A stretch of DNA of 21,492 nucleotides from a virus. Shown piece after piece: positions 3,601-21,492 of this stretch. The stretch is taken from IMG/VR virus record IMGVR_UViG_3300037882_002434, positions 1-21,492 of that record; one strand, 5' to 3'. Under the pieces are notes generated by a model. The model ran no database searches. It saw nothing but the letters and a program-made list of their open reading frames with translations, and had not been told where the DNA came from. The position numbers and the translations under genes are program-made. Positions within the stretch are counted from its first letter, which is position 1. Each line of letters begins with the position of its first letter.

Positions 3601-4425
3601 GTGGCGCTCTCACAGGCCAATTTTCAGAATGAAATAGGCGATGCTCTGGCAAACCGGAGCACGCGCGCAGTCATCGACAAAGCGTCGATAGCAAGTCAGG
3701 TGGCGGGCGGTTTATGCTCAATGTGGCGTGCGACAGGCGTTCCTGGCCAGGGAGCGATCCCAGCCGCCGCCGCGATATGCACCAGTACGACCACTGGTGC
3801 GGTGAGGTTTGCCAATCAGGTCGCGCCAATGACCAGCTATCTGGCATGGGCCTATTACGTGGCTTCTTCGGTGGGCCAAGCAACCGAAATACATGACCGT
3901 CTGGCGCACATGGGTGGACTCAATGGCACGCTGATAACAGCACAGGCGGTAAATATAGATTTGTCGACCAACGGGCTACCAGCTAGTCGGAGGGGTGATG
4001 ACAACTACAGCGATGTGATGTGGTGGCTGGAGTGGTACATCGCAACTGGTGCCACAGGCGTAAACGCAACCGTCGCCGTGGTTTATGACGACGGATCGAT
4101 TGGCAATATCGTGGTGCTTGTGCCTGCAAACACTGCCGCCGGCCGAATGCTGCCAATCATCACGGCTGTGCCTGGCCGGTTCATTCGAGCAATCACCAAT
4201 GTTACCTTATCTGCAACGACTGGCATCGCGGGTAACTTCGGCGTGACGGCCACTCGCCAACGTACAGGGCTTGAGAACGACGTTGGCAGCAAAGGTAAAT
4301 CATTCACATGGGCGATGCTTGGCGTGCCGGAAATCCCCAACGATAGCTGCCTGTTCTTCGTGTTGCCGTGCATTACAACGTCCACAGGCACTATTCGAGG
4401 GCAGGCGAAAATCGCGCACGTCTGA
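3601..4425 (+). CDS. Phage structural protein (beta-rich, conserved in alphaproteobacterial phages)
   Basis: A 274-aa protein beginning at GTG 3601 (MALSQANFQNEIGDAL), two bases after the previous stop. Recognisable stretches are ATEIHDRLAHMGGLNGT, DVMWWLEWYIATGATG with VAVVYDDGS, PANTAAGRMLPII, and the Ser/Thr-rich VTLSATTGIAGNFGVT. I recall this set from conserved but uncharacterised phage proteins next to fibre-repeat genes like the one that follows. It is probably a virion surface or tail-fibre component. The frame is open further upstream (3550), but that would overlap the preceding conserved gene in another frame. Confidence 0.7.
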   Translation: MALSQANFQNEIGDALANRSTRAVIDKASIASQVAGGLCSMWRATGVPGQGAIPAAAAICTSTTTGAVRFANQVAPMTSYLAWAYYVASSVGQATEIHDRLAHMGGLNGTLITAQAVNIDLSTNGLPASRRGDDNYSDVMWWLEWYIATGATGVNATVAVVYDDGSIGNIVVLVPANTAAGRMLPIITAVPGRFIRAITNVTLSATTGIAGNFGVTATRQRTGLENDVGSKGKSFTWAMLGVPEIPNDSCLFFVLPCITTSTGTIRGQAKIAHV

Positions 4426-4427
4426 CG

Positions 4428-5846
4428 ATGAGTACTGATCGCAGGCAATTATGGCCACCCGAACTTGACGTTACCGGCACGCTGACATCTAATACGCTGG
4501 TTGATCAGCTGATTGCGTCGCTTTACGCACCCGCGTCTTCTCCTTCCGGTCCTGTTGCACTGACAGGTTCATCTGTTGTGTCTGCTGCACCAATCGTTGC
4601 ACAAGGGTGGATCAGTGCCGCAACCGTTGTCGTCGGTCAGGCCGTTACCGCATCTGCGCCATCTGTGTTGTCCGGTTCAGTTGGACAGCGACATAATACG
4701 GTTGGGCAAAGCACAGCCAGTGGATCGCCAGCGGTGGCGGTTTCTTTTGTTGGCCAAAGCCATCTTATTGCTGGCCAATCGGTTGCGTCGTCTGCATCCA
4801 TCGCGGCGACAGCGGGTATTGTTCAAGCCCATGCGGTATCGGGCGCATCAAACAGCAATATAGTTCCAGCATTAGCAACAGGGGCAATTGGTCAAGGCAA
4901 CGCTTTCACTGGCCAATCTTTGAGCAGTGTTGCACCAGCATTGGTCGCAGCGACGTTCGGCCAACGGCACGGCATTGCCGGGGCTTCGGTTGCCAGCACT
5001 ACGCCTGTTGCGTTGTTAAGCACCATTGGCCAGCGCCATGCTGTGGGAGGGCAGGGTGTTTCGGGATTGGTACCAAGCCTGCAATCCGCCACCGTTGGCC
5101 AACGCCATGCAGTTGCTGCATCTGCCACATCAACAACCGCGCATATCACCGCCACTGCGGTAATCGCGCAATCTCACATATTGGCCAGCAGTGCGACCGA
5201 TACGACGGCCAGTTCGGCTGGGCTGGGACAGATTGCCACCGTCGCTATACTGGTAGGTTCTCCAATCAGCACGACGGCACCCGCCGTCGCTGGTGCAACA
5301 ATCCGCACACCAGCCGTTCTGTCAGCCAGCGGAATCGCAACACCCGTGCCAATGGCTGGGCAGTCACCTATCATAACACCCACTGCGTTGGTGGGGCAGA
5401 ACATCGCCATCGGATTGCCGTCATCGGGCCTCGCTATCGTTCGTCTTGTGCAGGCGCTGGGTGCTCCTGCTGGTGTCGCATCATCGCCACCATTTGCCGT
5501 GCTTGCCCAGATTGGTCAGCACCATATACTGACCAGCCGTGATATAGTGCCCCAAAGTCCAGCAGTTGGTCGCCCGCACCTGACACAACAACATGCGCTG
5601 GACGCGGTACCCGTTTCCACTGCTATGACACCGGGCGCTCCGGCAGTATTTGCGCAGATGCTGCTGTCTATTGATGCGGCGTCCCGCACTGCCGATGCGA
5701 CAGAGAGCGAACGGGCCGTCGAAATACATACAGACGGTTCGTTTGCAGCGTCGATGCTTAACGATGATCTGCGCGGCATATTTATTGGTGACACGTCATC
5801 TGCTGCTGCCACAATCTCGGACGAGCAGCGGTCGGTTTCAGTTTGA
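4428..5846 (+). CDS. Tandem-repeat fibre-like phage protein (472 aa)
   Basis: ATG at 4428, two bases after the previous stop. Residues 1-50 are an N-terminal head (RRQLWPPELDVTG, LVDQLIASLYAP). Residues 85-268 are eight units of exactly 23 residues with consensus (V/I)GQRH-x3-GQS-x2-S-x2-PAL-x2-AT. Looser units flank this on both sides (about 55-84 and 269-410). The C-terminal 60 residues are acidic and non-repetitive (IDAASRTADATESERAVEIHTDGS), perhaps a trimer tip or attachment domain. Similar GQxHxL repeats occur in phage proteins of Alphaproteobacteria; fixed-length Gly/Ser/Ala repeats suggest a regular beta-solenoid or fibrous stalk. It contains no cysteine. Function as a fibre is inferred from composition and neighbours. 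Confidence 0.75.
   Translation: MSTDRRQLWPPELDVTGTLTSNTLVDQLIASLYAPASSPSGPVALTGSSVVSAAPIVAQGWISAATVVVGQAVTASAPSVLSGSVGQRHNTVGQSTASGSPAVAVSFVGQSHLIAGQSVASSASIAATAGIVQAHAVSGASNSNIVPALATGAIGQGNAFTGQSLSSVAPALVAATFGQRHGIAGASVASTTPVALLSTIGQRHAVGGQGVSGLVPSLQSATVGQRHAVAASATSTTAHITATAVIAQSHILASSATDTTASSAGLGQIATVAILVGSPISTTAPAVAGATIRTPAVLSASGIATPVPMAGQSPIITPTALVGQNIAIGLPSSGLAIVRLVQALGAPAGVASSPPFAVLAQIGQHHILTSRDIVPQSPAVGRPHLTQQHALDAVPVSTAMTPGAPAVFAQMLLSIDAASRTADATESERAVEIHTDGSFAASMLNDDLRGIFIGDTSSAAATISDEQRSVSV
4680..5231 (+). repeat. Eight tandem 69-bp coding repeats
   Basis: Units start at 4680, 4749, 4818, 4887, 4956, 5025, 5094 and 5163. Each encodes 23 residues and begins with a (V/I/F)xQxH/N-type motif. 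DNA identity between units is low, so the repeat is old and held by protein-level selection rather than recent duplication. GGCCA-type bases recur at the GQ codons. Confidence 0.85.
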
Positions 5847-5864: not shown

Positions 5865-6182
5865 ATGCTAAGAACAGTTCGCCTAAAAACCAAGCGCGCA
5901 GGCGAGCGCAAGGATTACCCGCTAAATTACGCAAAGGCTTTGCGCGTTGATCGCCGCGATGTGGGCGACCAGCTAATCACGGGTGCGCATCCTGACCCAA
6001 GCAAGCACCCGACTGTCACCGTCATTGATGGCGATGTAATTGTCGATGCCTTTGGCGTCGTCGGAACCTCACTTGTTATTTGGCTGTCTGGAGGCACCCA
6101 ATTATCGCAGATCGACGTCACAGTATCCACCGCCCAAGGCAGGCGGTATGTGCAGCGCTGCATCCTGCCAATCGTGCCGTAA
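5865..6182 (+). CDS. Phage fibre-tail adaptor-like protein
   Basis: A 105-aa beta-rich protein with GGAG about 10 nt before ATG 5865. The pattern is a Lys-rich N-terminus (RLKTKRAGERKDYPLNYAKAL), VTVIDGDVIVDAF, the very typical VIWLSGGT, and a final strand VTVSTAQGRRYVQR. The WLSGGT...V-T...GR-x-R pattern is what I recall from small proteins annotated as phage fibre-tail adaptors. It probably folds as an Ig-like beta sandwich linking fibre to virion. It is the last structural gene before the terminase pair; 14 nt separate it from the next gene. Confidence 0.65.
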   Translation: MLRTVRLKTKRAGERKDYPLNYAKALRVDRRDVGDQLITGAHPDPSKHPTVTVIDGDVIVDAFGVVGTSLVIWLSGGTQLSQIDVTVSTAQGRRYVQRCILPIVP

Positions 6183-6196
6183 GAATTGCGCACCCA

Positions 6197-6787
6197 GTGC
6201 CCAGACCTAAGGCAGCCAAAAAACGCGCCGAACTTGACGACAAAATGAAGCACTTCATCGTCACGCAACTGGCGATGTACCACACCCGCGGTGAAGTATG
6301 TGACATGGTGCGCGACGAGTTCGGCAGCGATTTAGATATGGGTGATCGCGGCAGCAGAACATATGGCGACCGTGTGCGCGTTTATGACGCGGACTGCACG
6401 TATAGTTCAGGCAAACTGTCCGAGCGGTGGCGCACGTTGTTTTGGGAGACACGCAATCAGTATTTAAGCAATATCGCTAAGCATGCTGTGGCGCATAAAG
6501 CTGTACGATTGCGTAGTCTCGGGCGGATGGCGGGCAAGGCAGAAGACGAAGGCGATTACGCATTGGCAGCCAAGATGCTCGAGCAGGCAGCCAAAGAGGT
6601 TGGCGGGGTCTTCACCAATGAATCAGTCGTCAACCAGCAGGTATCTCTCTCTGGTTCTATCACACACGGGATTGCAGCAATGAGCGAAGATGAACGTCGG
6701 CTAGCACTTGAGGACCGCCTGAACGAAGCTATATTGCGCCTGCCTGCGCCTAAAATTGAGAATACTGACCCGGAAGGCGGACGGTGA
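6197..6787 (+). CDS. Terminase small subunit-like protein (DUF2280 type)
   Basis: A 196-aa protein from GTG 6197. The core matches DUF2280: KHFIVTQLAMYHTRGEV, then VRDEFG, a variable segment with YDADCTYSSGKLSERWRTLF, HKAVRLRSLGRMAGKAEDEG, and ALAAKMLEQAAKEVGGVFTN. Members of this family sit directly before large terminases and are taken to be the DNA-recognition subunit that selects packaging sites. The first helices probably form a helix-turn-helix. The C-terminal 50 residues, with MSEDERRLALEDRLNEAIL, are likely the oligomerisation or TerL-contact helix. An N-terminal Lys/Arg run (RPKAAKKRAE) precedes the domain. No good Shine-Dalgarno is seen before 6197, so the start is uncertain; the upstream extension to 6080 overlaps a conserved gene. 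Confidence 0.8.
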   Translation: MPRPKAAKKRAELDDKMKHFIVTQLAMYHTRGEVCDMVRDEFGSDLDMGDRGSRTYGDRVRVYDADCTYSSGKLSERWRTLFWETRNQYLSNIAKHAVAHKAVRLRSLGRMAGKAEDEGDYALAAKMLEQAAKEVGGVFTNESVVNQQVSLSGSITHGIAAMSEDERRLALEDRLNEAILRLPAPKIENTDPEGGR

Positions 6788-6791
6788 CGTT

Positions 6792-7604
6792 GTGCAGGCT
6801 GTTGACCGCATTCTTGAGCGTATAGCAACCAAGTCCCGCGCGCTTGGCGTGGCTATGCCGGACCCGGCCGCGCTGATCGGCACGCTGAGCAATGACGACG
6901 TGGAAGCATTGCTTGCCGAAATACTGGTCGATGAAGAGCGGGCCATGTTTAACAAGTTTGCCGACCTGTTTCCAGACGATGGCCCGTATCGGCGCGAACT
7001 GTATAAAAAGCACCTGCGGTTCTTCTCGGAGGGAAAGCGGCGCCGCGAACGATTATTTTTGGCTGGCAACCGCACGGGCAAGACAGTGGCCGGTGGATAT
7101 GAAGCGACAAGCCACCTGACTGGCGATTATGCGCATTGGTGGGAAGGGCGCGAGTTTCGCAAACCGATCCGGGCATGGGTGGCAGGCGACACGAACGAGA
7201 CGACGCGCGACATTCTCCAACAGCTGTTGCTTGGCAACATCTGCTATGACGGCCCTCTGAAGGGCGTAGACGGCTCCGGCCTGATACCTCGCGCAAACAT
7301 CGGTCGACCGATCTGGAAGACTGGTGTGCAGAACATGGTTGATACTGTCCCGATCAAGCACAAGAGCGGCGGATGGTCGACATTGGGGTTCAAGTCCTAC
7401 GATCAAGGGCGGCGGGTGTTTCAAGGGACCGCCAAAGAATTGATCTGGCTTGACGAAGAGGTGCCAGAAGATGTGTACAACGAATGCCTCGTCCGGACAG
7501 CCACCACACGCGGAATTCTTATCCTGACCTTCACTCCGTTGATGGGCATCACCAAGCTGGTCGACGATTTTCTGTCAGATGCTGGTGGGTCTGCAATTTT
7601 CTGA
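6792..7604 (+). CDS. Terminase large subunit, ATPase part (N-terminal fragment of split TerL)
   Basis: Packaging motor ATPase domain, 270 aa from GTG 6792; TTG 6756 is also possible but lies inside TerS. It has a Walker A motif AGNRTGKT (residues 91-98), a Walker B motif LIWLDEE (197-203) with the catalytic Glu following Asp, and the coupling motif LTFTPLMG (225-232). The pattern VAGDTNETTRDIL and LGFKSYDQGRRVFQGTAKE is characteristic of TerL proteins found with DUF2280 small subunits. The frame hits TGA at 7602-7604 in the linker between the ATPase and nuclease domains. The nuclease half continues in another frame from about 7667. No conserved ATPase motif is missing, so this half should fold. 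Whether it acts as a separate subunit or is joined to the second half is the main question. Confidence 0.9.
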   Translation: MQAVDRILERIATKSRALGVAMPDPAALIGTLSNDDVEALLAEILVDEERAMFNKFADLFPDDGPYRRELYKKHLRFFSEGKRRRERLFLAGNRTGKTVAGGYEATSHLTGDYAHWWEGREFRKPIRAWVAGDTNETTRDILQQLLLGNICYDGPLKGVDGSGLIPRANIGRPIWKTGVQNMVDTVPIKHKSGGWSTLGFKSYDQGRRVFQGTAKELIWLDEEVPEDVYNECLVRTATTRGILILTFTPLMGITKLVDDFLSDAGGSAIF

Positions 7605-7666
7605 TCTAGCATAATCTATAAACTATCGATATGGGATAGTTTATTGGCCACGGGGGTGCAGGGTTT
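7602..7666 (+). other. Interruption in the terminase gene (hairpin, stops in all frames)
   Basis: The interval begins with TGA right after a TTC codon and ends at TTT just before the second half of TerL. All three frames carry stops: TGA 7602, TAA 7612, TAA 7619 and TAG 7637. A perfect 10-bp stem (7618-7627 with 7635-7644, 7-nt loop) sits in the middle. GGGGGTG (7652-7658) is a good Shine-Dalgarno, 8 nt before TTG 7667. Imperfect direct repeats (7584-7604 and 7652-7673) flank the hairpin. Confidence 0.8.
7618..7644 (+). other. Perfect 10-bp stem-loop inside TerL interruption
   Basis: Left arm ATAAACTATC, loop GATATGG, right arm GATAGTTTAT. It is AT-rich and has no U-run after it, so it does not look like a terminator. 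It lies 14-16 nt after the TGA and 22 nt before the second TerL reading frame. Confidence 0.85.
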
Positions 7667-8419
7667 TTGTCTGAAACAGCAACATTTTTGAGGTCTTCAC
7701 GCGCGGTCGTCATGTGCGGCATGGATGATGTTCCACATTTGCACGCCACAACCAAAGAAGAAATCCTTGCATCGACCCCGCCACATCTGCGCGCCAGCCG
7801 CAAAGATGGTACTCCGTCGCTTGGGGCCGGAGCAATATATCCGATAGAGCCAGCAAACTTCACCGTCGCGCCATTCAGCATTCCGGAACACTGGAAACGG
7901 TCATATGGCTTTGATGTCGGATGGAATGTCACCACGGCGATCTTTGGTGCAATCGATCCGGATACCGACATTGGCTATCTGTACTCGGAGCACTACCGCC
8001 GTGAAGCCCAGCCATTAGTGCACGCAGCGGGTATTAAACTTCGCGGCGACTGGATACCAGGTGCCATAGACCCGGCTGCGCGTGGACGTGCACAGAAGGA
8101 CGGCGAGAACTTGCTGTCGATATACCGCAGCCTTGATCTGAAACTTACGCCTGCCGACAATGCAGTGGAGGCTGGGTTGTTTGCGGTCTGGGAAGATTTG
8201 AGCATTGGCCGCCTCAAAGTGTTCTCGAACATGACAAATTGGCTGCGCGAGCATCGACTGTACCGCCGTGATGAAAACGGCAAGATCGTCAAAAAGGACG
8301 ATCACTGCATGGATGCCACTCGGTATTGGCGAATGACCGGTCGCCGCATAGCAATCACCCGCCCATTTCAAAAGCAGGTACCGCAGATATTTCGCGGCGA
8401 CGCCAGAATAGGATATTAA
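7667..8419 (+). CDS. Terminase large subunit, nuclease part (C-terminal fragment of split TerL)
   Basis: A 250-aa C-terminal half of the packaging terminase, an RNase H-like endonuclease that cuts concatemers. It starts with the linker segment AVVMCGMDDVPHL and IPPH-like TPPHLRASRKDG-PSLGAGAIYP, which in intact homologues follows the ATPase domain directly. The metal-binding acids are probably Asp83 (GFDVGWN), Asp135 (GAIDPAARG) and Asp216 (HCMDATRY). QKDGENLLSIYRSL and TPADNAVEAG are further family signatures. TTG 7667 is the first start in this frame after the last stop (TAG 7637-7639), with GGGGGTG 8 nt upstream; ATG 7712 would cut into the conserved linker. The domain is complete, so the split has not damaged the fold. 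Confidence 0.9.
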   Translation: MSETATFLRSSRAVVMCGMDDVPHLHATTKEEILASTPPHLRASRKDGTPSLGAGAIYPIEPANFTVAPFSIPEHWKRSYGFDVGWNVTTAIFGAIDPDTDIGYLYSEHYRREAQPLVHAAGIKLRGDWIPGAIDPAARGRAQKDGENLLSIYRSLDLKLTPADNAVEAGLFAVWEDLSIGRLKVFSNMTNWLREHRLYRRDENGKIVKKDDHCMDATRYWRMTGRRIAITRPFQKQVPQIFRGDARIGY

Positions 8420-8422
8420 CCA

Positions 8423-10759
8423 ATGGCTGACACTGTTTTCGCTGATGAATTTGCGCAGGCTTATGATGCCCGCGAGCAAGAGCAGCAGGAAGGCGTACGC
8501 CGGGCACGAGTGCGCGAAGCTGCGACGTCGATCATTGCTAGGCTGGAAACCATAGCCAACGACCATGTTCGCCGCCGTCGGCCAATTGAATTAGTGTGGC
8601 TGTCCGCTTTGCGTGCCTACCACGGTAGGTATGACGACGTCGTAGAGCGTGAGTTGATGGCAGCAGAACGAGCGGGGAAGCCGCGTGCGCGGGCCTATGT
8701 GAAGCTGGCACGGGCTAAATCAGACGCATGGGAAGCCCGGATGTTTGATCTGTTGTTCCCGTCTGATGAAAAGAACTGGGGTATTGAGGAAACGCCAGTG
8801 CCTCTGCTGACCGATGGGTCAAAGCAGGCGTTGGCGCAGGCACTGGCGGCGGAGCAGCAAGCGATGGATGCCACTCAAGCCGCCAATGCAGCGGCACAGG
8901 CGGGGCAATCGCCCGACGCGCATATTGCAGAGGCGGCCATGAGTGGTGCGCAGTTGGTTGAGGCCCGCACGCAGGCGCAGCAGCTGCAAGATGAGGTTGA
9001 TGAGGTCCGCAAGCGTGCGGAGTTGATGCAAAAGGAAATCGAAGACCAGTTCATTGAGTGCGACTATCCAAAACGGGCACGCGATGCAATCCGCAATGGC
9101 GTCAGATTGGGTATCGGCGTGCTCAAGGGGCCGCTGGTGGCCAACCGGCCCGCGCGCAGATGGGCCAATGTCGGTGGTGCGCACCAATTGCAACACTCGC
9201 CCGATCAGCGACCAGAGGTGCGCTCGATTGACCCGTGGAACTTCTTTCCGGACGATAGCGCCACATCAATGGAAGATGCAGAGTTTACCTTTGAGCGCTA
9301 TTTTCCCGGAAAGCAGACGTTACGGCGTCTGGCCCGCACACTGAACTTCGACACCGATTCGATTGCAGAATTGCTCAAAGAAGGACCGACAGCAGGACTA
9401 GGCGAAACCGAGTTTCTGACCAGCCTGCGCGCAGTGTCAAACGACTATGACGCCGAGATAAGCGGACGGTATTTGATGTGGGAGTATAACGGCCCACTGG
9501 AGACCGTGGAGATTGCCACCCTCTTAGAAGCGGCCGGCGAAAGCGAGCGCGCCGCCGAGATGCTGCGCGATGAAGACCCGATGGCCGAAAACATGGTCAC
9601 CATGCACTTTTGCCAAGGCCGACTGCTCAAACTTGCCGACCAGTACGTCATGGACAGCGGAGAGACACTTTACAGCACGTTCGCATTTGCGCCTGGCGAG
9701 GCATCAATCATGGATGCATCCGGTGTGCCTGGCTTAATGCTCGACAGTTTGCGCGTACTAAACGGTGCATGGCGAATGATGATTGACAACGGAGCCATGT
9801 CTGCATTGCCGCAGGTTGTTCGCGACCGCCGCCGAATTGTCGGTGCAGATGGAGATAACGAAATACGCCCGGGCAAATTGTGGGATGTGGTTGGCGAGAG
9901 CATGCCACACGAATCGCCTCCTTTCCAAGTGTTTAACATCGTCAACAATCAGGGTGCGCTGGCTGGAATCGTGGAGATGGCGCTTAAGTTCATTGATGAA
10001 GAAACCAGCCTGCCGCTCATATCGCAGGGCGAACAAGGGTCGCATATCACGCAGACAGCAAGCGGAATGTCGATGTTGTTCAACAGCGCCAATGTCATTT
10101 TCCGTCGTGCAGTCAAATGCTGGGACGACGATATGACAACGCCCGTTGTTCGACGTTTCTACGACTGGAACATGCAATTTAACCCGAAGGAAGAAATTAA
10201 GGGCGACATGCAGATCAAAGCCGTCGGGACAAGCGTACTGCTGGTCCGCGAAATGCAGGCCCAGAACCTATTGATGATCGCGCGCGACTGGTCTGTGCAC
10301 CCGGTGTTATCGCACGCTCTGAAAAGCGGTGGTTATGCTGCTGCCCGTGCAGCTGTGCAGTCAATGAGCATGGGGCCGACGTCTATAATGGTGAGCGAAG
10401 ACGAGTTCGAGGAGAACCTTAAAAATTTGGCAGCATCCGCCAGCGAACAGATGTCGCCCGACGTCATGCGCGCGCAGGCAACAGTGCAGGCCGCGACGAT
10501 CCAAGCCGAGAGCCGCCAAAAATCTGATGAAACCGCCAAGGAAATTGCGATGCTGCGTCGCGAAACAGAGTTGATTCAATTGGCACAGCAGAACAACATG
10601 ACACTGGAGGCACTGCAAGCCAAGCTGGCGATGCACAAAACAGAGATGGACAGCAAAGAGCGAATCTTTGCCGCAGAAGCCGCCATTCAGTCCGAGGCAC
10701 GCGAGCAGGCGGCAGCCCTTGGCCAGCAAGCACCTGGTGGCGGGGGCGGCACACTATGA
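8423..10759 (+). CDS. Portal protein
   Basis: A 778-aa protein directly after TerL, the usual position and a fitting size for a large portal (P22-like portals are about 725 aa). It forms the dodecameric ring for DNA entry. Residues about 80-110 (ARAYVKLARAKSDAWEARMFDLLFPSDEKNW) and 260-300 (PWNFFPDDSATSMEDAEFTFER) match the portal core of phages with DUF2280 terminases. An inserted Ala/Gln-rich coiled coil spans about 140-215. LISQGEQGSHITQTASGMSML (about 532-552) fits the stem region, followed by VVRRFYDWNMQFNP. The last 120 residues are a Gln/Met-rich coiled coil, perhaps a barrel, ending in Gly-rich residues. AGGAT precedes ATG 8423. Its stop is coupled by ATGA to the next gene. Confidence 0.85.
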   Translation: MADTVFADEFAQAYDAREQEQQEGVRRARVREAATSIIARLETIANDHVRRRRPIELVWLSALRAYHGRYDDVVERELMAAERAGKPRARAYVKLARAKSDAWEARMFDLLFPSDEKNWGIEETPVPLLTDGSKQALAQALAAEQQAMDATQAANAAAQAGQSPDAHIAEAAMSGAQLVEARTQAQQLQDEVDEVRKRAELMQKEIEDQFIECDYPKRARDAIRNGVRLGIGVLKGPLVANRPARRWANVGGAHQLQHSPDQRPEVRSIDPWNFFPDDSATSMEDAEFTFERYFPGKQTLRRLARTLNFDTDSIAELLKEGPTAGLGETEFLTSLRAVSNDYDAEISGRYLMWEYNGPLETVEIATLLEAAGESERAAEMLRDEDPMAENMVTMHFCQGRLLKLADQYVMDSGETLYSTFAFAPGEASIMDASGVPGLMLDSLRVLNGAWRMMIDNGAMSALPQVVRDRRRIVGADGDNEIRPGKLWDVVGESMPHESPPFQVFNIVNNQGALAGIVEMALKFIDEETSLPLISQGEQGSHITQTASGMSMLFNSANVIFRRAVKCWDDDMTTPVVRRFYDWNMQFNPKEEIKGDMQIKAVGTSVLLVREMQAQNLLMIARDWSVHPVLSHALKSGGYAAARAAVQSMSMGPTSIMVSEDEFEENLKNLAASASEQMSPDVMRAQATVQAATIQAESRQKSDETAKEIAMLRRETELIQLAQQNNMTLEALQAKLAMHKTEMDSKERIFAAEAAIQSEAREQAAALGQQAPGGGGGTL

Positions 10760-18379: not shown

Positions 18380-18700
18380 ATGTGGTACGAATATATAGCG
18401 GATTTTGTTTCCGAAAATATCAAATCTATGGCCATTATGGCTGGCACCATTGCTGGTTTGATGGCTGCATTAAGCAAGTCGCTGCATAACGGTGTAATTC
18501 CCAGCGCAAGCTGGTGGGCTGCGCGTGTCTGCTCGGTCCTGTTCTTCGCAATTACAGCTTCGTGGATTGCTGAAATAGGCGCGATGCGTCCCGTGGGGGT
18601 CGCATTCCTGACGTCAATACTTAATTTCTTGGGTTTTTCGGCGCTTGAAATTATTGAGCGGCGGGCCAAACGCGTAATTGAAGGCAAAGAAGATGTATAG
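18380..18700 (+). CDS. Holin-like membrane protein
   Basis: A 106-aa protein if it starts at ATG 18380, with AAAGGGGC (18361-18368) upstream; ATG 18356 (overlapping the previous stop) would add eight basic residues, MKKGRKIV. Three hydrophobic stretches are visible: SMAIMAGTIAGLMAAL, WWAARVCSVLFFAITASWIAEIGA and PVGVAFLTSILNFLGFSAL. The C-terminus is charged (EIIERRAKRVIEGKEDV), as in many holins. It lies in a cluster with an M15 peptidase, so it is a good candidate for the membrane pore that releases the endolysin. No named holin family is recognised. Confidence 0.65.
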   Translation: MWYEYIADFVSENIKSMAIMAGTIAGLMAALSKSLHNGVIPSASWWAARVCSVLFFAITASWIAEIGAMRPVGVAFLTSILNFLGFSALEIIERRAKRVIEGKEDV

Positions 18701-19160
18701 AGCACTAATCGCTCTGGCGCTGCTGTTTGCATTGCCCGCGCCATGCATCGCCAAAGACTGGAAGGCGGCGTTTGCGCGGGTCAAAGATGGCGATACCGTG
18801 CTGCTGCTCAGTCATACAGTGTTCGATTTGCCCGTATCGATCAGGCTAATCTCGTCAAGCGGTGGAATTGATACACCTGAAAAAGACGGGCCATGCGCAG
18901 CCGAGCGCGAAGGGGCTGCAAGGGCAGCCGAGTTTACGCGAGATTTGATCGAGCGCGGCGGAATGCAAGGCACACTGCGCGGTGTGCGGGTCGATAAATA
19001 TGGCGGACGATATCTGGCGCAGATCATTGTGCGGGTCGACGGCAAATCTATCAATATTGGTGACGAGCTGCTGCGCGCCAAATTGGCTGTAATTTACAAC
19101 GGCGGTACGCGGCGTGACTGGTGCACACCGAACCTGCCTTTCCAAGGGGAAGCACAATGA
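18693..19160 (+). CDS. Secreted thermonuclease (SNase-like) family protein 2
   Basis: A 155-aa nuclease with a clear Sec signal peptide (MYRALIALALLFALPAPCIA; cleavage likely after Ala20). The SNase core has KDGDTVLLL (31-39), Arg51 in SIRL, IDTPEKDG with Glu63, and DKYGGRYLAQI with Arg106, matching the catalytic Arg/Glu/Arg set. A four-residue Ser/Gly insertion (ISSSG) separates the usual RLxGIDTPE block. It may degrade host or competing DNA in the periplasm, or act after lysis. ATG 18693 overlaps the end of the holin-like gene. The stop is coupled by ATGA to the M15 peptidase, so all three may be expressed as one lysis unit. Confidence 0.85.
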   Translation: MYRALIALALLFALPAPCIAKDWKAAFARVKDGDTVLLLSHTVFDLPVSIRLISSSGGIDTPEKDGPCAAEREGAARAAEFTRDLIERGGMQGTLRGVRVDKYGGRYLAQIIVRVDGKSINIGDELLRAKLAVIYNGGTRRDWCTPNLPFQGEAQ

Positions 19161-19847: not shown

Positions 19848-20060
19848 ATGGGCTGGTTTGGTAATCTGATTTTGAAATTCGCGCGCAAAGGCAACCCAGT
19901 TCGCGAAGTGGTGGAAAGTGTGGGCGAACGCGTCCTGCCAAAAGCTGCAATCGATGCAATCGATGCAGCAGATCGATTGGGTGTTGACAAGGTGATTGAA
20001 AAGAAACTGCGCGGCAAGCCAAAGCCACCGCGTAATCGGGACGCTCGCGAAACGCCATGA
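19848..20060 (+). CDS. Small basic hypothetical protein (70 aa)
   Basis: ATG 19848 is chosen because GGAG (19837-19840) lies 7 nt upstream; ATG 19842 would add two residues and form an ATGA overlap. The N-terminus is amphipathic (MGWFGNLILKFARKG), the middle helical (VREVVESVGERVLPKAAIDAIDAADRLGVDKVIEKKL), and the C-terminus Lys/Arg/Pro-rich. No family is recognised. It lies between two membrane proteins, so it could contact the membrane or be a lysis accessory. Confidence 0.55.
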   Translation: MGWFGNLILKFARKGNPVREVVESVGERVLPKAAIDAIDAADRLGVDKVIEKKLRGKPKPPRNRDARETP

Positions 20061-20173
20061 AACACAATCGCCCTATCGTTACAGTGTTGAGGCATCCATT
20101 CGCGTTTGTATTCGGTGTGATAGTCGTCGCGGCCATTTTTGTCCTTATGGTGCGATGGGCAACCAGTGCTTGA
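20057..20173 (+). CDS. 38-aa single-pass membrane microprotein
   Basis: ATG 20057 overlaps the preceding stop (ATGA), and its TGA (20171-20173) overlaps the next start. The translation is basic at the N-terminus (MKHNRPIVTVLRHP) followed by one membrane helix (FAFVFGVIVVAAIFVLMVRW). Its tight coupling to both neighbours makes it credible despite its size. It could be a pinholin-like or holin-regulator protein; that is a guess. Confidence 0.6.
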   Translation: MKHNRPIVTVLRHPFAFVFGVIVVAAIFVLMVRWATSA

Positions 20174-21492
20174 TGACCATTGCACTGTTCAAACCCAACG
20201 AGCATCCTGTTGCTCACGCGCGGCGTCTAAACGAACTTGCCCGGCAAGTATCGTCGGCTGGTGATGCGGCAGAACATGCCGACGCAGCCGCGATCATCCG
20301 GCAAGACGTGCTGGCGGCCCTCGCGTCGGTTCAAGGTCAAGCACAGACCGCTGGAAACATATTGCAGCAGGTGCAATCTGCCCAAAGCGCAATCAATGGG
20401 ATTGCATCAGACATTGATATTCAGTCGGAGGCAATCACTTTAGCCAATGCTGCGGTGGATGCTGCTGTGGCGCACATCGACACGATTCAAGGCCAGATAG
20501 ATGCAGCATTCAATCAAGTGGGCACAGCGAAGGCCGCAGCAATCGCCGCAGCTAATGACAGCCTCCAGCATGCGCAATCGTCGGCTGGAAGCGCCTTGTC
20601 AGCCAGTGCGCAAGTGGCTATCGTCACACAGAAGGCAACAGAGTCCGAGTTATCAGCGGCAGCATCGCAGGCCCAATACAATCTGGCACGATTGCAGGCA
20701 AATGATGCGCGTACCAGCGCACAGGCGTCTGGCCTGACCGCGACGTTTTCGGGGGTGTCTTCAACCGAATCAGGCACCAGCGCACAAGCAGCACGCCAGT
20801 CGGAATTGAATGCCGAAGTTTCAGCTACCGCCTCATTGGCGAACGCCACCGCGACGGCTTTGGATGCCAGCTTGGTTATCGCGGTTCAAACAGCCGTTCA
20901 GCAATTGGCTAGTAGCGCCACGATCAGTGCCAATACTGCGCAGAGCAAAGCAGCGGACGCCGCCAATTCGGCATCTGCATCGGCGCAGTCGGCGAGCACT
21001 GCACAAAGCGCAAGCGGTGCATCCGGCGCATCCGCGACAGCCGCAGAAGTCAGTAAGCTTGGTGCCATATCTGCCAATGCCACCGCACAGACAGCAGCAC
21101 AGGTAACACAGGCTAATGTCGCAACTACTGATGCAGCAAAGGCTACGGCAGTGGCTGCATCTAACTTATCGGCCACCTATAGGGATGCGGCAGCAGGCAG
21201 TGCAACAGCGGCGGCGGGAAGCGCGGGAACGGCAACTACACAGGCCGGCATTTCCACGACTAAAGCCGCCGAAGCGACGGCTTCTGCGTCCACAGCCACT
21301 ACACAAGCTGTATTAAGCTCGAATTTTGCAACAAATAGTTCCAACAAAGCAACTGAGGCCACCGGCAGTGCTACAGCTGCGCAGGGAAGTGCTGGGACAG
21401 CTGCCGCTCAAGCGACAATTGCGACAACAAACGCTACTACGGCATCCTCCGCTGCCAGCACAGCTACAACAGCCAGTAATTTGTCAGCCACC
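20173..21492 (+). CDS. Ala/Ser/Thr/Gln-rich fibre-type protein (3' end outside window)
   Basis: Starts at ATG 20173 (shares its A with the previous TGA) and is open through the end of the window, at least 440 codons. The first 20 residues (MTIALFKPNEHPVAHARRLN) look like a short anchor. The rest is long coiled-coil helix dominated by Ala, Ser, Thr and Gln, like the shaft of some tail-fibre or tail-needle proteins. A longer repeat begins near the end: GSATAAxGSAGTA recurs 168 nt (56 codons) apart at 21196 and 21364, and a SNLSAT motif recurs at 21160 and 21475. The receptor-binding tip should lie beyond the window. Position after the lysis genes is common for the last fibre gene of a phage late operon. 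Confidence 0.75.
   Translation, partial: MTIALFKPNEHPVAHARRLNELARQVSSAGDAAEHADAAAIIRQDVLAALASVQGQAQTAGNILQQVQSAQSAINGIASDIDIQSEAITLANAAVDAAVAHIDTIQGQIDAAFNQVGTAKAAAIAAANDSLQHAQSSAGSALSASAQVAIVTQKATESELSAAASQAQYNLARLQANDARTSAQASGLTATFSGVSSTESGTSAQAARQSELNAEVSATASLANATATALDASLVIAVQTAVQQLASSATISANTAQSKAADAANSASASAQSASTAQSASGASGASATAAEVSKLGAISANATAQTAAQVTQANVATTDAAKATAVAASNLSATYRDAAAGSATAAAGSAGTATTQAGISTTKAAEATASASTATTQAVLSSNFATNSSNKATEATGSATAAQGSAGTAAAQATIATTNATTASSAASTATTASNLSAT

Follow-up and report, generated by a model that had tools for sequence, protein, structure and literature searches.

A P22-like phage large terminase carried by two genes, with a predicted break inside the ATPase domain

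The window analysed here is a linear virus record of 21,492 bases, a single metagenome record. Two open reading frames at 6792–7604 (270 aa) and 7667–8419 (250 aa), at the coordinates given by an earlier, sequence-only reading of this DNA, lie between a DUF2280 gene and a portal-like gene and encode the two parts of a large terminase subunit (TerL). The locus contains the following features.

6080–6787, + strand: DUF2280 protein adjacent to TerL (PF10045, E 4.9e-21; phrog_546); start tentative
6792–7604, + strand: TerL chain 1 (PF03237 Terminase_6N), ASCE ATPase core with Walker A, Walker B and coupling motif, lacking the last strand and lid
7071–7085, + strand: P-loop, with cis-arginine R94 (7071–7073) and K97 (7080–7082)
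7452–7457, + strand: Walker B, D221 and E222, invariant in split N halves
7533–7538, + strand: coupling motif, T248 and P249, invariant in split N halves
7605–7666, + strand: 62-nt spacer between the chains, with stops in all frames and no Rfam match
7618–7644, + strand: 10-bp perfect inverted repeat with a 7-nt loop (arms 7618–7627 and 7635–7644), no T run after it
7667–8419, + strand: TerL chain 2, with the last ATPase strand, lid, linker and RNase H-like nuclease (PF17289 Terminase_6C from aa 81); start at TTG 7667 or 7688
7700–7810, + strand: predicted ATPase-domain remnant opening chain 2, with strand RAVVMCGM from 7700 and lid helices at about 7745–7807, mapped from the model of an intact relative
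7913–8314, + strand: candidate metal-binding Asp residues of the nuclease, D76 (7913–7915), D128 (8069–8071) and D209 (8312–8314), numbered from TTG 7688
8423–10759, + strand: portal-like protein directly 3' of chain 2 (phrog_332, E 2.2e-24; phrog_1216 portal, E 8.7e-4)

Judged by its position, the DUF2280 protein is probably the small terminase subunit. Chain 1 matched PF03237 with an E-value of 1.1e-15, covering only positions 1–153 of the 215 in the profile. A search of the PDB with the N-half sequence alone returned no match, whereas a structure search with the AlphaFold2 model of chain 1 (pLDDT 93.0, pTM 0.86) retrieved the ATPase of P74-26 TerL (Z 15.9). Across 52 split N halves, the P-loop lysine (K97), the Walker B DE pair and the coupling TP pair form invariant columns, and R94 is nearly invariant. 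Pfam, invariant residues and the structure match thus agree on the P-loop, Walker B and coupling motif of an ASCE core. Chain 2 matched PF17289 (E 1.1e-7), and the C-half profile matched the P22 nuclease (4dkw, E 1.1e-35) from profile position 42. D76, D128 and D209 are invariant columns in 54 split C halves, and together with these two matches they identify an RNase H-like nuclease with metal-binding Asp residues. The sequence-only reading had assigned all Walker and coupling motifs to the first frame and three candidate Asp residues to the second; the residues mapped as it described.

The two domains do not lie on one polypeptide. Stops occur at TGA 7602 in one frame, TAA 7612 in another, and TAG 7607, TAA 7619 and TAG 7637 in the third; each frame is closed within 7602–7637, so a single indel cannot rejoin the halves, in agreement with the earlier claim. 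The spacer contains no endonuclease gene in its 62 nt. The RNA fold energy of the whole spacer was not significant (z −0.86), and therefore the 10-bp stem has no statistical support except as a perfect repeat. Chain 2 had been credited with its own Shine-Dalgarno sequence and a TTG start: GGTG is indeed found 8 nt 5' of TTG 7667, but TTG 7688 fits the start position of the relatives better. Either codon may be the start.

The split had been described as falling exactly between the ATPase and nuclease domains. This placement was wrong; the models put the break about 45 residues N-terminal to that border, within the ATPase domain, at the loop that precedes the last strand and lid. Modelling covered the window N half alone and an intact relative with a one-ORF TerL (L210). 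In structure alignments, the window N half ends at approximately residue 200 of P74-26 TerL (ATPase domain to 255), at 189 of D6E, 306 of T4, 165–171 of Sf6 and 216 of HK97. The L210 model (pLDDT 91.6) matches the P74-26 ATPase domain over residues 31–290 and the P22 nuclease domain over 288–471. The break maps to its loop 234–248, between helix 228–233 and strand 249–254, and not to the domain border at 288–290; lid-like helices follow the strand at 264–273 and 276–284. Terminase_6N spans residues 65–299 of L210, and five of six C halves weakly matched the tail of this profile (E 0.002–0.13), whereas the window's own C half gave no such match. A separate profile search found three C-half segments matching the tail. 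The D6E ATPase construct comprises residues 1–234, with the linker at 230–241 (PMC5727402). Model alignments, Pfam span and construct limits all lead to the conclusion that the ATPase domain ends on chain 2. With the break inside that domain, the halves should complement each other structurally, as an ASCE core and a lid-nuclease chain and not as an ATPase subunit and a nuclease subunit. In Sf6, the P-loop residue Arg24 toggles to lid Glu187 (PMC7617512); by analogy, the equivalent arginine (R94) and the lid would here be on separate chains.

Both halves were run by tblastn against related loci, which came from viral contigs, genomes of bacteria and named phages. Both halves were present at 231 of 267 loci; 79 of the 231 were split and 152 intact (the counts include duplicates, and the queries favoured split forms). 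At the other 36, the fetched stretch contained no N half. Once C-half duplicates at 95% were removed, 184 rows remained: 61 split, 23 lacking an N half and 100 intact, one of these (L009) being relabelled as a frameshift. Such ratios are no prevalence estimates: most queries were split proteins, and one search was represented by the best 80 of 585. Among 62 split representatives, 56 loci were usable after removal of L009 and L032 (frameshifts) and of four with an N match below 150 aa; 92 of 99 intact representatives entered the pair, Mantel and tree work. Split forms were found in contigs titled Sphingopyxis, Novosphingobium, Azospirillum, Kushneria, Chromohalobacter, Halomonas, Vibrio and others, and the window N half matched once in each of the bacterial genomes searched (10/10). 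Dozens of independent records share the break, as do bacterial genomes and a complete circular phage; this recurrence refutes an assembly error, and on this comparison of sequences the split is real. Some split loci may nevertheless have decayed, for example L092, with an IS110-like transposase at the junction, and the frameshifted L032 and L009.

Stop-to-start distances in the 56 non-redundant split loci were exactly −4 nt (ATGA type) in 16 and zero or less in 18; a further 11 were 1–150 nt, 12 were 151–400 nt and 15 exceeded 400 nt. The second gene starts with ATG (38 loci), GTG (9) or TTG (8), no start being found in one. A Shine-Dalgarno-like match of at least 4 nt preceded the C start in 22 of the 56, compared to 21% of random positions.

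On a tree of the joined N and C alignments (136 rows, 12 divergent intact rows omitted), the clade of the window (SH-aLRT 99) comprises 17 rows. Intact close relatives, named in the sequence-only reading as evidence that would count against it, did not turn up: all 17 members are split and none is intact. Parsimony requires at least 17 changes between split and intact forms on this tree, and starred branches force at least 4 of these. The tree of C halves (184 rows) places the window in a 19-row clade (SH-aLRT 93) with 15 split rows, no intact rows and four without an N half. Three of these four have an N half 3.9–5.8 kb upstream, and L224 lies near a contig end. In the 9.2-kb contig L008, the N half (7888–8694) and the C half (1366–2106) are 5.8 kb apart, with the DUF2280-position gene adjoining the N half and the portal-like gene adjoining the C half; the N halves of L190 and L221 are approximately 3.9 and 5.3 kb upstream, respectively.

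With pairs of saturated dS, which give no value, set aside, the median NG86 dN/dS in 23 split pairs was 0.193 for the N half (maximum 0.44) and 0.146 for the C half (maximum 0.31). The corresponding medians in 109 intact pairs were 0.188 and 0.196. These values indicate that both halves are under purifying selection, with the catalytic residues kept. N and C distances correlated with a Mantel r of 0.60 in split loci, 0.83 in intact loci and 0.45 in split loci with gaps above 400 nt, the sets and fragments differing between these values; the lower split value could reflect looser coupling of N and C. Searched with the Terminase_6N and Terminase_6C profiles, the complete circular genome MW202785.1 (40,038 b), which originates from Manatee Spring, gave a single match to each, located in the split genes, and no intact TerL copy. 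The Manatee Spring paper used DNase- and chloroform-treated particles (PMC8388828), and MW202785.1 may stem from that study, the accession being absent from its text.

The junction is variable. Overlapping split loci have nothing between the halves, and the others have spacers or whole genes, up to 5.8 kb. Junction contents include small ORFs with no assigned function, genes resembling the Thoeris anti-defence gene Tad2 (L269, 6371–6778, − strand; L076, 2274–2732) and HNH genes (L193 and L240, the L193 matches being below Pfam cut-offs). Further junctions carry a beta-helix protein just below cut-off (L134), a tail-fibre-like protein (L133), virion-protein-like genes (L269) and the transposase of L092. 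Loci of Kushneria, Litchfieldella, Halomonas and Chromohalobacter whose halves are 72–83% identical have gaps of −4, 253, 226 and 1094 nt, which shows that the junction gains and loses genes. In the close relatives L019 and L020 the halves are separated by 234 and 731 nt, respectively, a 731-nt junction being noted for L020 and L025; the additional sequence apparently contains several small ORFs, some of which resemble each other.

Clade-wide inheritance, purifying selection, the kept catalytic residues and the lack of an intact copy in MW202785.1 make a functional two-chain terminase well supported in evolutionary terms. The two-subunit proposal of the sequence-only reading thereby receives strong comparative support, except for its division into an ATPase subunit and a nuclease subunit. 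We consider it probable that the window represents a P22-like (Terminase_6) phage or prophage lineage in which TerL is permanently two genes, with the chains assembling into a working motor. Chain 1 would supply the ASCE core of the ATPase and chain 2 the last strand, lid, linker and RNase H-like nuclease. The chains would join non-covalently as chain 2 docks its strand and lid onto the chain 1 core. Docking would tether the nuclease to the motor, and the ATP site would be completed by the lid of another polypeptide; a pentameric motor would then package and cut DNA as usual. The 4-nt stop/start overlap (16/56 split loci) would couple translation, and elsewhere other genes have come to insert at the junction.

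A more far-reaching version, possible but rather doubtful, is a heteromeric packaging motor in which the core ring and the lid-nuclease are separate subunits and each ATP site is closed by the lid of the other chain. The lid-nuclease might then be exchanged between phages or be present in other than a 1:1 ratio, the break would have arisen repeatedly, and the junction would be an insertion site for Tad2-like, HNH and virion-protein genes.

Rejoining of the halves into a full-length TerL by an intron, translational bypass or programmed frameshift appears unlikely. It has a parallel in Jug phages, whose terL is also in pieces, split by a group I intron, but there RNA splicing restores one protein (PMC12363816). 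The 10-bp stem of the window spacer could be read in the same direction, and 4-nt overlaps could in principle allow frameshifting. However, an Rfam scan covering the window and nine split relatives (ten sources) found no intron and only one tRNA, and none was found at the window junction at E up to 1; a 62-nt spacer is also too short for a group I intron. The gaps of the relatives, which range between −4 nt and 5.8 kb and contain unrelated genes, further oppose rejoining, as does the second gene starting at a constant place with ATG, GTG or TTG.

We give little credence to the idea that one half alone matters, the core acting by itself or together with a protein of the host, while the nuclease half is a free enzyme off the motor. 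The kcat of the D6E ATPase rose from 7.8 to 457.7 per min once the nuclease was removed (PMC5727402), so an ATPase can work without a tethered nuclease. However, that construct (1–234) kept its lid, whereas here the lid is on chain 2 and the core alone would lack it. Both halves are equally conserved, and the isolated P22 nuclease has reduced or absent activity (PMC7617512), which also argues against this idea. That the two ORFs are debris of a dead TerL, whether misassembled or recently inactivated by a lesion in one phage, might be suspected in a single 21.5-kb metagenome record when L009 and L032 look like frameshift artefacts, but the recurrence of the break, the wholly split clade and the low dN/dS render it highly improbable.

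Arthrobacter cluster AY phages (BillyTP genes 2 and 3) also have TerL in two consecutive genes, as found in the window; theirs overlap and are annotated as ATPase domain and nuclease domain (PMC11920828, PMC12820723). Their TerL family is different (PHROG 19179/21277, PF20441). The AY nuclease gene encodes 198 aa with the first DG-type Asp at residue 15, which places the AY cut at the domain border, whereas chain 2 here includes the ATPase strand and lid, and residue 76 is its first Asp. The present split differs from that of AY in its site, in its TerL family and in its probable need for structural complementation. Intact P22-like TerL proteins (EBPR podovirus 1, Chlorobiaceae phage CV-1-33 and others) are 46–54% identical over the two halves, and their loci have the small subunit gene before and the portal after, as in the window, but with one ORF. 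Insertion of a homing endonuclease left the NrdA gene of phage Aeh1 in pieces, the essential enzyme being made from two polypeptides. Two loci here resemble it in having HNH genes between the halves; the enzyme is different, and most junctions lack an endonuclease. PMC5679792 was considered as a split-terminase precedent and rejected, its two separate genes being lysis genes. No earlier report of a break inside the ATPase domain was found in the literature searched, in which subscription journals were thinly covered.

Isolated domains of T4 gp17 retain enzyme activity but not packaging, which makes the natural split case a real question. In packaging models, the core that hydrolyses ATP is coupled to the lid and nuclease within a single chain (T4 electrostatic, Sf6 lid; PMC5727402, PMC7617512). 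A motor naturally cut between core and lid would mean that the covalent link is dispensable, and it would offer a ready system to add, remove or mix lid-nuclease subunits. For annotation, a TerL search expecting one long ORF misses or discards split phages, and TerL trees built from full-length proteins drop them.

Elsewhere in the window, a 492-aa protein with degenerate GQ-rich repeats and no PHROG match is encoded at 4368–5846, upstream of the probable small terminase gene; a similar-looking repeat protein is encoded between the TerL halves of L269 (2113–4419). A long repetitive ORF rich in Ala, Ser and Thr (19996–21492), without a Pfam match, runs off the window end. The window also encodes two different staphylococcal nuclease (SNase)-like proteins, at 2329–2685 and 18678–19160 (PF00565, E 7e-5 and 5e-6, respectively).
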